NCBI GenBank assembly: GCA_026991065.1
Contig: JALXCG010000629.1
Coordinates: forward strand, 1-14,288
Reading direction: 5' to 3'
Length of the DNA stretch: 14,288 nucleotides
Source: JALXCG01 sp026991065 [NCBI: Gemmatimonadota bacterium]
GTDB lineage: Bacteria > GCA-2686955
The position numbers were made by a program, and so were the translations under genes. The notes below the pieces were generated by a model that was given only the letters and a program-made list of their open reading frames with translations, searched no databases and had not been told where the DNA came from. Position 1 is the first letter of the stretch, and every line of letters starts with the position of its first letter. Shown here piece by piece: positions 2,774 to 7,620 of this stretch.

Positions 2774-4270
2774 TTACCCTGGGGTGGCAGGCCGCCCCTT
2801 GAGGTACGCATCGGCCGCGGCTGCCAGGCCTGGCCGGCTATTGGTGACGCTACCCTCCACCACCTGTTCCAGAAGGTGGGCCTGGAGGCGCCCGATCTCG
2901 CGGCCGCGCAGGCCGTAGCGTTGCATGAGTTCGCCGCCGGAAAGCGCCAGATCATGGGGCGTGGCCGGAAGGTCGGCGCGAATCTCCAGGAGCTTGGCGG
3001 CGAGGGCGTCGATCTCTTCGTCTTCGGAGCCGGCGGCGTGGGCCGCGCGGTCGGCGCGGTGGAGAAGAAGCAACCGCTCCAGGCGTTCGCGCCCATCTCC
3101 CAAGCGCGCCAGCAGTCGCCGCAGAGCCCGCGGCGATGAATCCGCGCGCAGGTAGACCAGGTGGTTATGAATCAGCGCGCGGACCTCGGTCTCGCCGTTG
3201 TGAGGGAAGGAGGGAGCGGCGGTGATCCGCAGGCGCTGCATGAGCGTGGCCGCCATCCTGGCGCCGACTTCGGCGTGCCCATAGAAATGACCGTGAATCT
3301 TCCCGTCCGCCCCCATCGACTCGCTGTAGCAGTAGGGCTTGGCGATGTCGTGGAGGAGCGCGGCGAGCCGCACGATCACATCGTCGGTGCGCCGGGCGGC
3401 TTCATCGACTGTGAGCAGCACATGCTCATCCACCGGCAGGTGGTGGTGGCGACTGCGCTGGTCGAAGCCGATCGAGGGGAGAAACTCCGGTAGGATCCGG
3501 CCCATGGCGCCGGTGGCGATGAGCAGGCGCAGGCCGATCGAAGGGGTTTCGGCGCGGGCCAGGAGCTTGACCAGTTCCTCGGCCACGCGCTCGCGGCTCA
3601 CGTTTTCCAGAAGATCGACGCAGGCGGCCATGCCGCGCTCGGTGGCGGCGTCGACCGTCAACTGAAAACGGGCGGCCGCGCCGGCGCCGCGGAGAATGCG
3701 CAGTGGATCTTCGCGGAAGCGCGTCGCGGGGTCGCCGACCGCGCGCAGGAGGCGGGCGTTCAGGTCCGCGCGGCCCCCATGGGGGTCGATCCAGCGGCCG
3801 CCGGGGAGTTCCACCGCCATGGCATTGATCGTGAAGTCTCGGCGGCGCAGGTCATCTTCGATGGTGAGAGCGGGGTTGGTATGAATGCGAAAGTCACGGT
3901 GGCCGGGACCGGTGGAGTGCTCCGAACGCGGCAGGGCGACATCGATTGCAGTGGCGGCGCGCGGCGGCGGCGAGCCCGGGGCGGCGGCGGAGGTTGTCGG
4001 CCGCTTCCCGCGGCGCGGGTGCGGGCACCATTTGAAGACCGCGAATGTCGCGCCTACGCGATTCACCTTTCCATGCGCCGCCAGCACCTCGTGCAGTTGC
4101 TCCTCCGCGACTCCGGCGACCACATAGTCCAAGTCGGCCGTTGCGGTGTCGCGACCGCGGAGCAGATCGCGCACCGCTCCACCGACGACATAGATCCTGG
4201 CACCCTGGGCGCGGAGCGGCGCGATCCACGAAGGCGCGAGCCACGCCGCCGGAAGTGGGAACTCACTCAT
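2774..4270 (-). CDS. cca: CCA-adding tRNA nucleotidyltransferase (class II) with HD domain
   Basis: A 498-residue protein. It has the class II nucleotidyltransferase signature GGAVRD (30-35), metal-binding D46-x-D48 in ADLDYVV, a third carboxylate D110 in IDVALPR, RRDFTINAMA (143-152) and EDPLRILRG (187-195). These are hallmarks of the enzyme that builds or repairs the 3' CCA end of tRNA from CTP and ATP in the cytoplasm. The C-terminal half holds an HD phosphohydrolase domain with ALLHDIAKP (H307-D308) and further His at HGHFYGHAEVG, as in the HD-fused CCA enzymes. A Pro/Arg/Ala-rich insert lies at about residues 83-107, between TFAVFKW and the IDVALPR strand. The ATG overlaps the stop of the upstream HD-domain gene by 4 bp (ATGA), implying translational coupling. 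Poly(A) polymerase or a partial CC- or A-adding specificity is a less likely alternative. Confidence 0.9.
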   Translation of the reverse strand: MSEFPLPAAWLAPSWIAPLRAQGARIYVVGGAVRDLLRGRDTATADLDYVVAGVAEEQLHEVLAAHGKVNRVGATFAVFKWCPHPRRGKRPTTSAAAPGSPPPRAATAIDVALPRSEHSTGPGHRDFRIHTNPALTIEDDLRRRDFTINAMAVELPGGRWIDPHGGRADLNARLLRAVGDPATRFREDPLRILRGAGAAARFQLTVDAATERGMAACVDLLENVSRERVAEELVKLLARAETPSIGLRLLIATGAMGRILPEFLPSIGFDQRSRHHHLPVDEHVLLTVDEAARRTDDVIVRLAALLHDIAKPYCYSESMGADGKIHGHFYGHAEVGARMAATLMQRLRITAAPSFPHNGETEVRALIHNHLVYLRADSSPRALRRLLARLGDGRERLERLLLLHRADRAAHAAGSEDEEIDALAAKLLEIRADLPATPHDLALSGGELMQRYGLRGREIGRLQAHLLEQVVEGSVTNSRPGLAAAADAYLKGRPATPG

Positions 4271-4824
4271 GCAGAGGGTACGAGCCCCTTGACCAGCGGC
4301 TCGTAGGTCATGAAGTCAGCGTGGTGTACGACATAGGCTTCGGGCGTGCGCTTGACCAGATTGCCTTCGCCGGCATGGGTGGCGATGATGTGGCAGACCG
4401 CATCCGGGACACCACACTCCTGTGCCAGCCCGACCCCGGTGAAGGGGTGACGCAGGTACTGGCCGCGTAGCGATTGGCGCAACTCACCATCGACCCGCTC
4501 ATATTCCAGGAGCTTGCCGACATCCGCCAGAATGGCGCCGGCAATGAGCGTATCGCGATCCAGTGGCATGGCGGTGCCCATGAAGGCCTCAATCTTTTTC
4601 GCCGACTCCATGGCCAAATGAACCACCAGGCGCTTGTGCGCCAGGAACGAGACCGAGCAATTCGGTACATGCAGAGTGAAAGGCATCTGATTCAGATCAC
4701 TCGGCGTCAGCGGGCTGCGGGCGAATGCCAGGCGCCAGGTGGCCAGGGTTTGGGCGCGCAGATCCTCATTGTCGATCCACTCGATTTCCGGCCAGATCTC
4801 AAGGATTTCAGCGTCGGTCACCAT
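4267..4824 (-). CDS. HD-domain protein with altered HD motif, coupled to cca
   Basis: A 185-residue protein with an HD-superfamily helical core: HKRLVVHLAMESAKKI (His63, His69), LIAGAILADVGKLLEYE (98-109), RHPF (His126), IIATHAGEG (His150) and VVHHADF (His167, His168, Asp170). The usual HD pair reads AD here (Ala100-Asp101), so one metal-binding His is replaced. It may be a family variant with metal held by the other His and Asp residues, or a loss of catalysis. HD proteins of this type act on phosphate esters, often nucleotides; the substrate here is unknown. The start at ATG 4824 has a clear ribosome site, GGAG, seven bases upstream. The reading frame continues open further upstream but is not protein-like. 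The stop overlaps the cca start (ATGA), so the two are probably one transcript. A paired role in tRNA or nucleotide metabolism is inference from position only. Confidence 0.78.
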   Translation of the reverse strand: MVTDAEILEIWPEIEWIDNEDLRAQTLATWRLAFARSPLTPSDLNQMPFTLHVPNCSVSFLAHKRLVVHLAMESAKKIEAFMGTAMPLDRDTLIAGAILADVGKLLEYERVDGELRQSLRGQYLRHPFTGVGLAQECGVPDAVCHIIATHAGEGNLVKRTPEAYVVHHADFMTYEPLVKGLVPSA

Positions 4825-4937
4825 GGCTCTACTCCATCGATTGGCAAGATCTGTGAAGAGTGAAAAACAAAAATAATAGCGTAGCTTGGCGGCAGAATAG
4901 CGATCTTCTTTTGTGGTTTCGACCCTGACCTTCGGGG

Positions 4938-4955
4938 TTCGGTTATTTTGCCGAA
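4938..4955. promoter_or_regulatory. Palindromic operator-like site 1
   Basis: TTCGGTTATTTTGCCGAA. With its flanking bases the arms extend to GGTTCGG / CCGAACC, a 7-bp inverted repeat. It starts exactly 29 bp before site 2. The AT-rich six-base centre and GC-rich half-sites are typical of binding sites for dimeric helix-turn-helix regulators. It sits nearer to the HD-domain gene than the other copies. Confidence 0.75.
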
Positions 4956-4966
4956 CCATCTCTCGA

Positions 4967-4984
4967 TTCGGTATTTTTGCCGAA
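4967..4984. promoter_or_regulatory. Palindromic operator-like site 2
   Basis: TTCGGTATTTTTGCCGAA, the same half-sites and the same 6-bp AT-rich centre as site 1, separated from it by 11 bp (29 bp start to start). It lies 35 bp upstream of the presumed -35 box of satD, so site 1 plus site 2 form a distal pair relative to that promoter. Confidence 0.75.
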
Positions 4985-5018
4985 ATATACAGGTCCCGAA
5001 AAGAGTTCTTGCAACCGG

Positions 5019-5046
5019 TTGACGGCTGCTCTGCATTCGGTAACAT
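5019..5046 (+). promoter_or_regulatory. Putative satD promoter, likely giving a leaderless mRNA
   Basis: TTGACG at 5019-5024 matches five of six bases of the sigma70 -35 box. TAACAT at 5041-5046, after a 16-bp spacer, matches four of six of the -10 box. Transcription would begin around 5053-5056, at or next to the satD ATG at 5056, and no Shine-Dalgarno sequence precedes that ATG. The -10 box lies inside operator site 3, so a bound regulator would block the promoter. Boxes were found by eye only. Confidence 0.45.
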
Positions 5047-5053
5047 TACCGAA
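5036..5053. promoter_or_regulatory. Palindromic operator-like site 3, overlapping the satD -10 box
   Basis: TTCGGTAACATTACCGAA. Including one flanking base on each side it is the most symmetric copy: 9-bp arms ATTCGGTAA / TTACCGAAT around a two-base centre. It covers the putative -10 box and ends two bases before the satD start codon. That position would give direct repression. Confidence 0.75.
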
Positions 5054-5055
5054 TC

Positions 5056-5727
5056 ATGAGCGAATTCGGCAATTTTACCGATCATCACTATTTGGCCCTG
5101 ATTGGTGATCTCCGGGGCTCGCGGGACCTGCCGCGCCGCGCCGCGGTGCAGGAGCAACTGGAGGCGGCCATGGAGAGCCTCAACCGCGAACTCCCGGCCG
5201 GGCAACTGGCCGCCGGTTTCGCCATTTCGCTGGGAGATGAGTTTCAGGGGTTGCTCAGTGACCCGGCCGCACTGCCGCTGCTCCTTGCCCGTCTCGATGC
5301 ACTCCTGCCGGGGCTCGCCATTCGCTACGGCGTGGGCTGGGGCACCATCACCACCACCCCGCGGCCCCTTGCGGTGAGCATGGACGGCCCTGCCTTTCAT
5401 CGTGCCCGCAGCGCCATTGAAGCGGGCAAGCGGAGTGGCCGCTGGGTCACGGTGAGTGGCTTTGGGGAGGTCGGCGATGACCTGCTCAACGCCCTCTTTC
5501 GCCTGATGGGGGTGCTGCGCGGCGGCTGGTCGGAGAAACAAGCGGAGACGGTGAGCTTGGTGCGTCGACTCGGCACGCAAAAAGCGGTGGCGGAGGCTCG
5601 CGCGGTGGCGCCGTCGACCGTCAGCGAAGCGCTCGCCGCCGCCTATTTCGAGCCGCTGCAGGAAGCGGAAAACGCCATCGCCGAATTTCTTCGCCACCAT
5701 TTTTCGCGGACACCCGATGTGGATTGA
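5056..5727 (+). CDS. satD: SatD family protein with C-terminal helix-turn-helix-like segment
   Basis: A 223-residue protein of the SatD family. Seen features: YLALIGDLRGSRDLPRR at the N-terminus (12-28), LGDEFQGLL (59-67), IRYGVGWGTITT (89-100) and MDGPAFHRARSAIEAGKRSGRW (109-130). The family is named after a gene in the streptococcal sat (acid-tolerance) locus, and its biochemical activity is not established as far as I know. Residues about 174-193 (TQKAVAEARAVAPSTVSEAL) look like a helix-turn-helix, which would let the protein bind DNA, plausibly the palindromes around its own promoter. The start at ATG 5056 has no Shine-Dalgarno sequence and may be leaderless. Codons 4-9 themselves form operator site 4. 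The 3' end overlaps the DUF3307 gene by 11 bp, so the two are co-expressed. Function as an autoregulator is inference. Confidence 0.85.
   Translation: MSEFGNFTDHHYLALIGDLRGSRDLPRRAAVQEQLEAAMESLNRELPAGQLAAGFAISLGDEFQGLLSDPAALPLLLARLDALLPGLAIRYGVGWGTITTTPRPLAVSMDGPAFHRARSAIEAGKRSGRWVTVSGFGEVGDDLLNALFRLMGVLRGGWSEKQAETVSLVRRLGTQKAVAEARAVAPSTVSEALAAAYFEPLQEAENAIAEFLRHHFSRTPDVD
5065..5082. promoter_or_regulatory. Palindromic operator-like site 4, inside the satD coding start
   Basis: TTCGGCAATTTTACCGAT, one base off the palindrome at its last position. It is exactly codons 4-9 of satD (Phe-Gly-Asn-Phe-Thr-Asp) and starts 29 bp after site 3, repeating the site 1 to site 2 spacing. A site in early coding sequence fits a roadblock or cooperative repressor arrangement. 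Confidence 0.65.
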
Positions 5728-6607
5728 TACCCCCGCCGCTCAGCTTCTCGCCCTGCTCATCGTCGGACACCTGCTGGGCGACTTTCTTCTGCAGGGCGCC
5801 GCTATGGCGCGTCTGAAGGGGCGCCGGGTGCGCGTTCTGGCGGCCCATGGCGGGCGCGTGGCGCTGGCCCAACTGCTGCTGGCCTGGCCCTTTGTGGATC
5901 TTCGGCTGGTGCTGGGCGTGCTGTTGCTGGCGCTGCTCCACTCTCTGGTGGATCGCGGCAGGATAGCGATCCAGCGCCGGGCCCTGCTGACCGCCTACCG
6001 GGCGGCCCGCTCCACCCCGAAGGCCACCCGCCGTCCCGGCGACCGCTGTTCTCACCGCTCCCGCGCGACTGCCGCCTGCGCGCCCGCCCGATTGCGCCTG
6101 TTCTTCGCCGAGCAGGCACTGCATCTGCTGCTGCTCTGCGGCCTCTGGCAGCTTTGGCTGCGCAGCGCCGGTCACCCGCCGGCAGCGGTCTGGCCGGTTG
6201 CCGCCACCACCCTGCGCACCTACACCGCCGCCGCCCTGGTCGTGGGAGGCTACATCGTCAACGGCGCCGCCGCCGTGGTCGTGGTGCGGGGCATTCTGGC
6301 CCGCTTCGCCGACCTCTGGGAGCCCTCGGATGACGCAGCCGGTCGTGCGTCACGGGTTTCCCGCAATGCGATGGGACGCGTCATCGGTGTGCTCGAGCGG
6401 CAGATTGTCTACACCCTGATTCTGCTCGGTCAGTGGGGGGCGCTGGGGCTGGTCCTGGCAGCCAAGTCGGTCGCCCGCTACCCCGAGATGAAGCAGCGCC
6501 ACTTTGCCGACTACTACCTGATCGGTACACTGGCGAGCCTCAGCGTGGCGCTCGCCAGCGGGGTGGTCGTGGCGCTGGCGCTCGGCCGGTTGAAACTCCC
6601 GGGTTAG
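5717..6607 (+). CDS. DUF3307 domain integral membrane protein
   Basis: A 296-residue hydrophobic protein. The N-terminus holds the DUF3307 signature GHLLGDFLLQ (17-26) within the first membrane segment, then HSLVDRGRIAIQRR (75-88) and FFAEQALHLLLL (129-140). Likely membrane segments lie at about residues 6-26, 52-78, 129-148, 163-190, 229-250 and 269-290, with a very basic loop at 95-127. The C-terminal half (GRVIGVLERQIVYTLILLGQW, then ARYPEMKQRHFADYYLIG) is the part usually attached in longer DUF3307 proteins. Function is unknown. Repeated His/Asp residues at the membrane face (His18, Asp22, His75, Asp79) hint at metal or proton chemistry, which is inference. ATG 5717 overlaps the satD end by 11 bp. 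The TAG stop is formed by the end of the 167-bp inverted-repeat element. Confidence 0.85.
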   Translation: MWIDTPAAQLLALLIVGHLLGDFLLQGAAMARLKGRRVRVLAAHGGRVALAQLLLAWPFVDLRLVLGVLLLALLHSLVDRGRIAIQRRALLTAYRAARSTPKATRRPGDRCSHRSRATAACAPARLRLFFAEQALHLLLLCGLWQLWLRSAGHPPAAVWPVAATTLRTYTAAALVVGGYIVNGAAAVVVVRGILARFADLWEPSDDAAGRASRVSRNAMGRVIGVLERQIVYTLILLGQWGALGLVLAAKSVARYPEMKQRHFADYYLIGTLASLSVALASGVVVALALGRLKLPG

Positions 6608-6771
6608 GAGCCTGTCGCCCATTGTCTTCATGTCGCCCCGCACCCGTTCCTGCTCCGATCTCTGCGTTGCCAAGTCCTTGAGAGGCAACCAGCCTTCCTG
6701 CGGACTCAGCGCCTTGATCTCGAAGCAGGCCCGAACACGGGGCTCGAAAGCCAATGTGCGACAGGCTCCTA
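6605..6771. mobile_element. MITE-like element with 20-bp terminal inverted repeats and TA flanks
   Basis: The left end TAGGAGCCTGTCGCCCATTG (6605-6624) and the reverse complement of the right end (6752-6771) match at 19 of 20 positions. Both ends start with TA, so the element can be read as GGAGCCTGTCGC...GCGACAGGCTCC inserted at a duplicated TA, the pattern of IS630/Tc1-mariner type transposition. The 167-bp length and lack of a transposase fit a miniature non-autonomous element. An inner arm pair GTTGCC / GGCAAC lies at 6666-6671 and 6684-6689. The two ends supply the TAG stop codons of DUF3307 and of the methyltransferase. It may also act as a bidirectional hairpin between the convergent genes. 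The transposon family is inferred only from the TA and the end shape. Confidence 0.65.
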
Positions 6772-7620
6772 GCGCTTGTAAGCCGTGATCCCGACGCTCT
6801 TGATCGCCGGAAAATGCTCCTCCAACTCCCGCTTGGTGAATCCCTCGCGGGCCAGCGCCAGTTGCAGGTCGCTGTCGCTGGCGTAGAGGTCCGCGCCGAA
6901 AACCGACTCCCGCTCGACCCGGATGTCGCTGAAGCCCGCGGCCTCCATGGCGGCGATATAGTCCGCGCGCAGCCAGGCGCCGCTGACGCAGCCGACATAG
7001 GCATCGGCACAGCGCAGAATCGCCCGCGGCAGAGGGCGTTCCAGCACCACGTCGGAGATCATCAGCCGCCCGCCCGGCTTGAGCACCCGGAACGCCTCGC
7101 GGAACACCCGCTCCTTTTCCGGCGAGAGGTTGATGACGCAGTTGGAGATGATCACGTCAACCGCGTCATTTTCCACCGGCAGTTCTTCGATCAGCCCCTT
7201 GCGGAACTCCACATTTTCCGCCTCGACCGCCTGCGCATTGGCGCGGGCCCGCGCCAGCATCTCGTCCGTCATGTCGACCCCGATGACGCGCCCTTCGGTG
7301 CCCACCTGGCGGGCGGCGAGAAAGGCATCGATCCCGGCGCCGGAGCCGAGGTCGAGCACCACTTCGCCCGGTCGCAATGAATCGAGTGCAGTCGGATTGC
7401 CGCAGCCCAGTCCGAGGTTTGCTCCCTCCGGCAGGGCCGCGAGTTCCTCTTTGCTGTAGCCGATGGCGCCACTGATCAGGGCGGCCCGGGCCTCTCCTCC
7501 GCCGCAGCAGGAGCCGCCGCCGGCGACGACGCGCGCATAGCCTTCCGCCACCAGACGGCGAATCTCTTCGGGGGTTTCCGGCGCCTGGCCGGGTGCGGGG
7601 GTGGAGTTGCAGCAGCCCAT
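6769..7620 (-). CDS. arsM: Arsenite S-adenosylmethionine methyltransferase
   Basis: A 283-residue class I methyltransferase. The SAM motif VLDLGSGAGIDAFLAA lies at residues 88-103. It is preceded by NLGLGCGNPTALDSL (Cys73) and followed by VIISNCVINLSPEKERVFREAFRVLKPGG (Cys161) and CADAYVGCVSGA (Cys204, Cys211). By analogy with characterised ArsM enzymes, cysteines in the GCGNP, NCVINL and GC(I/V)SGA blocks bind As(III). A further CysCys pair sits at 38-39 in GGGSCCGGG. The enzyme transfers methyl groups from SAM to arsenite, giving methylated and volatile arsenicals in the cytoplasm. The ATG at 7620 is the natural family start (MGCCNS...). AGGAG lies 12 bases upstream, a rather long spacing. 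The upstream extension of the frame to 8010 is not protein-like. No arsR, arsC or arsenic transporter is adjacent. Confidence 0.92.
   Translation of the reverse strand: MGCCNSTPAPGQAPETPEEIRRLVAEGYARVVAGGGSCCGGGEARAALISGAIGYSKEELAALPEGANLGLGCGNPTALDSLRPGEVVLDLGSGAGIDAFLAARQVGTEGRVIGVDMTDEMLARARANAQAVEAENVEFRKGLIEELPVENDAVDVIISNCVINLSPEKERVFREAFRVLKPGGRLMISDVVLERPLPRAILRCADAYVGCVSGAWLRADYIAAMEAAGFSDIRVERESVFGADLYASDSDLQLALAREGFTKRELEEHFPAIKSVGITAYKR

Follow-up and report, generated by a model that had tools for sequence, protein, structure and literature searches.

The window, which is the whole stretch of 14,288 nucleotides analysed here, carries satD followed by a gene coding a membrane protein with a DUF3307 domain (Table 1). 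An HDIG-domain protein is encoded divergently from satD. Just after the DUF3307 gene lies an element of 167 bp whose inverted ends, 24 bp long, are 92% complementary. At least 46 matches to this element are found in its own genome; at least 40 exceed 120 bases, with identities of 87-100% (40 of 119 candidates scored), which makes it look like an abundant MITE-like repeat.

Table 1. Features of the satD region; positions are those of the window.
Feature	Position	Strand	Sequence or basis
Operator palindrome 1 (predicted)	4938-4955	.	TTCGGTTATTTTGCCGAA
Operator palindrome 2 (predicted), starts 29 bp after site 1	4967-4984	.	TTCGGTATTTTTGCCGAA
Operator palindrome 3 (predicted), over the -10 and inferred transcription start	5036-5053	.	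TTCGGTAACATTACCGAA
Operator palindrome 4 (predicted), within satD codons 4-9	5065-5082	.	TTCGGCAATTTTACCGAT
-35-like hexamer TTGACG	5019-5024	+	consensus match only
-10-like hexamer TAACAT, inside site 3	5041-5046	+	consensus match
satD, 223 aa, PF16264	5056-5727	+	Pfam match
SatD N-terminal domain, residues ~11-134, nucleotidyl cyclase/GGDEF-type fold	5086-5457	+	AF2, fold matches
SatD HTH, residues 175-195; second helix 186-195 PSTVSEALAA	5578-5640	+	AF2 helices, half-site covariation
DUF3307 membrane protein	5717-6607	+	overlaps satD end by 11 bp; PF11750 match
C-terminal domain common to examined SatD partners	6362-6568	+	about residues 216-284, outside Pfam match
HDIG-domain protein, divergent from satD	4267-4824	-	
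167-bp element with inverted ends	6605-6772		

Four 18-bp palindromes surround the satD start. Their coordinates and their 29-bp pairing, given by an earlier, sequence-only reading of this DNA, are confirmed by the sequence and by a repeat finder, which reports for the window a single repeat family: four copies of 18 nt, spaced 29, 69 and 29. The strict motif TTCGG-N8-CCGAA has three exact matches and one with a single mismatch, which are the four sites; the claim that no similar palindrome lies elsewhere in the window holds for this motif at up to one mismatch. At up to two mismatches the window has 12 matches for 9.3 expected, a number reached in 46 of 200 shuffles, so that the motif stands out in no form but the strict one. 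The degenerate pattern TTCGSY-N6-RSCGAA (at least 10 of 12 letters) finds four sites in the satD region, against 0.19 per region in shuffles of eight satD regions. The combination TTGACG-16-TAACAT at 5019-5046 is the only sigma-70-like promoter found in 4700-5300 (0.2 expected). Its -10 falls within site 3, as the sequence-only reading had proposed, and the assignment of site 4 to satD codons 4-9 agrees with the coordinates. The satD transcript, whose start position is inferred, would be leaderless or nearly so.

SatD belongs to PF16264, with 72.1 bits for a cut-off of 29 (E 6.6e-20). It is predicted to combine a cyclase-fold domain with a helix-turn-helix (HTH) motif. The AF2 model (pLDDT 92.5) matches GTP cyclohydrolase III with Z 13.3 (108 residues, 2.1 A), and GGDEF and adenylyl cyclase chains with Z up to 12, a palm-type fold. 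The HTH-like carboxyl terminus noticed before at about residues 174-193 corresponds in the model to helices 175-181 and 186-195. Conservation among 198 SatDs is very high at D18 (197), S22 (198), D61 (198) and E62 (180). The acidic residues D18, D61 and E62 were likened to cyclase metal-ligand positions by strand order, without superposition, and the near invariance of D18, S22 and D61 suggests a working nucleotide site.

The partner encoded downstream of satD belongs to PF11750 (36.3 bits for a cut-off of 23), the match covering residues 10-144 only. Its model is all-helical (pLDDT 89.9) and matched no solved fold (best E 0.4), a result that by itself does not make the fold a new one. Alignment of 12 partners of 106-296 aa from different satD loci shows that, despite their differing lengths, they share a C-terminal domain; a profile of this domain, built from those 12 proteins that are themselves from among the loci, finds the domain in 151 of 201 loci and underlies the partner counts given below. 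Only one of ten partners scanned against Pfam scores over a cut-off, as DUF3307. The arrays described below mark out the partner as a membrane family whose common C-terminal domain lies beyond the Pfam DUF3307 match. Pfam gives DUF3307 no function. Residues 7-89 of the DUF3307 protein match phrog_2470 (membrane protein; moron, auxiliary metabolic gene and host takeover), and a 134-aa DUF3307 protein is reported from a jumbo Ralstonia phage (PMC8504454). Phages may carry the N-terminal DUF3307 domain without the C-terminal one. A search of phage records and one scan of virus contigs gave no relative of SatD.

The sequence-only reading had set conservation of the motif upstream of related satD genes beforehand as a test, and similar half-sites in 29-bp pairs are indeed found there in haloarchaea and bacteria. 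In eight haloarchaeal records (L051, L056, L132-L137), TTCGGY/TTCGCC-type sites are found at -126, -97, -50 and -21 relative to the ATG; seven of the records have the full set, and L133 is without the first. Sites of L139 at -20 and +9 have the same positions as sites 3 and 4 of the window. Two pairs are present in L157 (-140/-111 and -38/-9), one in L177 (-38/-9), and in a Thermoplasmatales MAG (L138) sites are found at -81, -51 and -22. No such array was found in L149, also a relative. An initial scan of the collected genomes for close relatives had retrieved none.

The spacing was scored in 120 loci, the window included, over a region from 300 bases before to 60 bases after the SatD match. 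Each spacing from 20 to 40 was rated for palindromicity and for the likeness of the two sites, with ties shared. A spacing of 28-29 bp is best in 73.9 of the 120 loci, against 11.1 in shuffles (100 per region) and 12.1 in coding controls; with ties counted in full the numbers are 77/120 and, for controls, 18/120. Of these 77 loci, 62 in addition score higher than at least 95% of the shuffles of their region. In a further 80 loci, the best 80 of 364 relatives found with an alignment of the window and haloarchaeal SatDs, 28-29 bp is best in 53.4 (shuffles 7.8, coding controls 4.3). The loci compared are not fully independent of each other; among the 70 representatives out of 198 that are less than 50% identical, 28-29 bp is best in 50.0. 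All 26 representatives that score at least 32 have a spacing of 28 or 29, a score that 2 of 1400 shuffles attain. In 22 of 24 additional loci, scored without shuffles, 28 or 29 comes out best in 18 (tied with 39 in L225), the exceptions being L224 (28 second), L237, L240 and L241. Omitted from the comparison were L086, with 8 nt upstream, and six matches below the Pfam cut-off; 20 of 27 further satD places were fetched (15 second copies and five that are the sole match of their genome), and 7 of 10 plasmid hits were opened.

Arrays are carried by haloarchaea, a Thermoplasmatales MAG, Clostridia, Gammaproteobacteria (Haliea), Eisenbacteria and, on plasmids, Alphaproteobacteria. Many consist of weak A/T palindromes, e.g., TATAAC, at the fixed 28-29 bp spacing. 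The evenly spaced layout is, on this sequence comparison, a trait of the SatD family in bacteria and archaea, with half-site letters that differ by lineage. Chance origin of the arrays is rejected by the shuffles and coding controls. Note that 28-29 bp is a non-integer number of B-DNA turns, which counts against reading the sites as operators. On plasmids of haloarchaea and Alphaproteobacteria (L051, L053, L054, L055, L056), satD occurs with its membrane partner next to it and an array upstream, so the SatD module may be transferred from one replicon to another. Locus L052, on an Arthrobacter plasmid, has the partner and lacks the array.

The half-sites vary with the HTH of the SatD encoded beside them. 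Across 89 non-redundant loci the partial Mantel correlation between half-site and HTH similarity, the N-domain being held constant, is 0.30; none of 999 permutations reaches this value (highest 0.09), and the correlation of half-sites with the N-domain given the HTH is 0.06. The correlation with the HTH is modest, falls to 0.19 among pairs less than 35% identical in the N-domain, and comes from a test that does not fully remove shared ancestry. Particular helices go with particular letters. SatDs with an STVSE helix, haloarchaeal ones among them, have TTCGG, TTCGC or TTCG sites in 6/6 cases; QPAVSK goes with TATAAC (4/4), QPAVSQ with TATAAG or near (6/7, the exception being L067) and QQAVS with ACAA (3/3). 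The IWKRRKTL helix is accompanied by GTTTCA or GT.TCA in three of five loci, the remaining two being best on GAAACA. In L155 and L181, whose SatDs are 49% and 48% identical to that of the window, the helix has VSK or VSR and the sites are TTAGC. VSE alone is insufficient, with ATCGG sites in L097 and L108 and AGATA in L099. A partial helix-to-site code extending over bacteria and archaea is predicted from these pairings. This statistical link makes SatD the likely binder of the array, and the earlier naming of SatD as first candidate for an autoregulator gains support from half-sites that follow its recognition helix beyond what the N-domain predicts.

In the genome of origin (an assembly of 4.14 Mb in 902 contigs, 83.8% complete), an exact palindrome pair separated by 5-25 bp is present solely at satD. 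The single pattern of the sequence-only reading has 15 forward matches, four of them at satD, and an A/T-rich core with at most one mismatch is found in seven places, again four at satD. A motif scattered genome-wide without relation to satD had been named as an outcome that would speak against the proposal: for the paired form, unique to satD, this is rejected, while single sites do occur elsewhere. At up to two mismatches there are 39 places against 14 for a control pattern, an excess that leaves room for further genomic targets.

The array goes with the gene after satD. Arrays were called strong when the best spacing was 28 or 29 with a score of at least 28 (33 of 3000 shuffles), and weak by a rule that 396 of 3000 shuffles pass. 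Where the partner is adjacent (131 of 201 loci) the upstream array is strong in 99, weak in 13 and absent in 19; where no partner is seen (42 loci) it is absent in 35, strong in five and weak in two. The other loci have a separate partner (18), a partner region outside the sequence (9; seven strong, two weak) or were skipped (1). The 13 weak calls are at the chance rate of their rule and provide no evidence. The 42 loci without a partner represent few independent events because about 30 of them come from one phylum, that of genome G075. In this phylum satD is present in 36 of 40 genomes, many with two copies; the 20 lower-ranked copies (L112-L131) have no visible partner and no best spacing of 28-29, except for a three-way tie in L117.

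When satD and its partner are apart, the array lies between the two in 11 of 18 loci (0.17 expected), two of which also have a weak upstream call; five of the remaining seven have a strong upstream array. A 30-bp pair is located between satD and partner in L091, one of the 18. A count with partners called by hydropathy gave arrays in 67/72 loci with partner versus 7/45 without in a first set, and no contrast in a second (44/61 versus 11/16), in which several loci without a called partner have wrong frames or a gene further away. The best reading of these sequence comparisons is that the array accompanies the membrane-protein gene after satD (often DUF3307) and that the partner is its real target. 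Two numbers count against the target reading: 32 of the 131 loci with an adjacent partner are without a strong upstream array, and a strong array is found in five of the 42 loci without visible partner.

Fourteen loci are termed streptococcal-type from a strong Pfam match and, in L225, also from a satD flanked upstream by SRP54 and downstream by DUF3307. In all 14 the TTATAA motif nearest the start has the reading TATAAT, a count that covers the -10 element and was obtained with TTATAA itself as search string. In 13 of them (the exception being L238) TTATAA motifs are 28 or 56 bp apart. Two of these loci were checked: DUF3307 follows satD in both, and SRP54 (ffh) precedes it in L225. The gene before satD in L228 codes for a topoisomerase. 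In L237 (2.3-Mb genome) satD is interrupted with SRP54 still upstream, and no partner was detected within the 3.5 kb examined. In S. pyogenes, satD is reported to occur in 178/249 genomes and to be the one accessory gene that ranks in the top quarter for essentiality (PMC11323703); the passages on satD in PMC10326533 tie it to acid tolerance only. Open-licence literature on SatD/PF16264/DUF3307 yielded no SatD operator, DNA binding or regulatory role. Beyond the acid-tolerance and essentiality labels, the arrays lead to the prediction that SatD is a DNA-binding regulator whose operator can be read.

The reading favoured here, with a probability of about 0.8, is that the palindromes are SatD operators occupied cooperatively by dimers in 29-bp pairs, and that SatD is a local autorepressor of satD-DUF3307 whose real target is the partner. 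A SatD dimer would bind each palindrome via the C-terminal HTH, and two dimers 29 bp apart would bind cooperatively. Occupancy of sites 3 and 4 would shut off the satD-DUF3307 transcript, since the -10, the inferred start and the opening codons all fall under these two sites; sites 1 and 2 would form a second, upstream pair. The N-terminal cyclase-fold domain would be a likely nucleotide input, sensing or making a nucleotide. SatD would act in this way as a local autorepressor of the two-gene unit, with the membrane partner as the gene whose control matters. What the sequences show is the arrays, their constant spacing, their tie to the partner gene and their covariation with the HTH; that SatD binds as a dimer or tetramer and represses, that a nucleotide controls it and that the partner does harm are presumed steps of this scheme. 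The partner protein is, hypothetically, harmful to the cell; loss of the repressor of a harmful neighbour predicts a gene that is accessory yet essential, which fits satD of S. pyogenes and offers a simple candidate answer to that combination. The interrupted satD of L237, with no partner detected in 3.5 kb, agrees with this prediction.

SatD might bind the same array as an activator. The location of sites 1 and 2 upstream of the promoter is a frequent activator position, but site 3 covers the -10, site 4 is within the coding region, and the repeats of streptococcal-type loci themselves contain a TATAAT-like -10, which renders activation improbable. That another regulator encoded elsewhere binds the array and controls satD is more doubtful still: single TTCGGY-like palindromes do exist elsewhere in the genome, whereas the half-sites vary with SatD's own HTH over the 89 loci, and STVSE-type SatDs go with closely similar sites both in haloarchaea and in bacteria, which are unlikely to share one such regulator.

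The intergenic region holding the array is common to the divergent HD-domain gene, which the array could serve. A tblastn comparison with 17 related satD loci (up to ~2.5 kb of flank each) detected no relative of the HD protein, its one chance hit having E 0.58, and loci without such a relative include ones with the same sites; a role for the HD gene is accordingly very improbable. Perfect arms and a 6-nt loop could also pair in RNA as leader hairpins or terminators, and a single terminator-like hit, at 4921-4939, has its end within site 1. Sites 1-3 are, nonetheless, at or before the inferred transcription start, and many arrays in other loci are weak A/T palindromes that keep the 28-29 bp spacing, so that hairpins are scarcely credible.

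Repeated palindromes at fixed spacing beside the regulator's own gene, the layout of an array operator, are what is found at satD, and the autorepressor reading invites comparison with several known systems. SatD is the namesake family of the sat (secretion and acid tolerance) genes of Streptococcus mutans, which adjoin ffh. PucR/CdaR-type regulators join a GGDEF-like domain to an HTH, a domain order that agrees with SatD. Foldseek ranks a fragment of Mycobacterium Rv2242, of this type, first for the SatD model (E 2.6e-4), while the overall TM-score to Rv2242 is low (0.34). The PucR/CdaR family is not known to have a 28-29 bp palindrome array. As is predicted for SatD, NrdR associates a nucleotide-related with a DNA-binding domain and represses, often at its own gene, from two boxes in fixed register (PMC12051234, PMC12176259, PMC9110341). 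It differs in its ATP-cone and Zn-ribbon domains (PMC12176259, PMC9110341), and in box centres that PMC12051234 places about three whole helix turns apart, as compared to 28-29 bp for SatD. The SatD sites are, moreover, found at satD and a membrane-protein gene. The Zn-ribbon and ATP-cone of NrdR were not found in SatD: Pfam finds only SatD in the protein, and the model has a cyclase-like N-domain with a C-terminal HTH.

A predicted autorepressor next to a partner that may do harm also recalls type II toxin-antitoxin systems, as does a satD that is accessory but essential in S. pyogenes (PMC11323703); the difference is that the SatD partner is a polytopic membrane protein whose toxicity is hypothetical. 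No PADLOC 2023 model matches SatD, DUF3307 or the HD protein. The Panoptes system pairs OptS, a minimal CRISPR polymerase with a palm-type fold, with the membrane protein OptE, a likeness to SatD and its partner. A fold search with the SatD model lists OptS (9pd0) at rank 34 (E 3.5e-3); the predicted DNA-binding domain and operator array of SatD set it apart from Panoptes. A tentative and rather unlikely extension of the autorepressor reading is a widespread addiction or guard module made up of SatD and the membrane partner and common to bacteria and archaea. In it SatD would repress the partner gene, and a nucleotide that SatD makes or holds would quiet the partner protein; disturbance of this nucleotide signal, for example by stress or phage, would lift both controls at once and free the partner to act on the membrane. 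If true, such a module would join a Panoptes-like logic to a built-in repressor.
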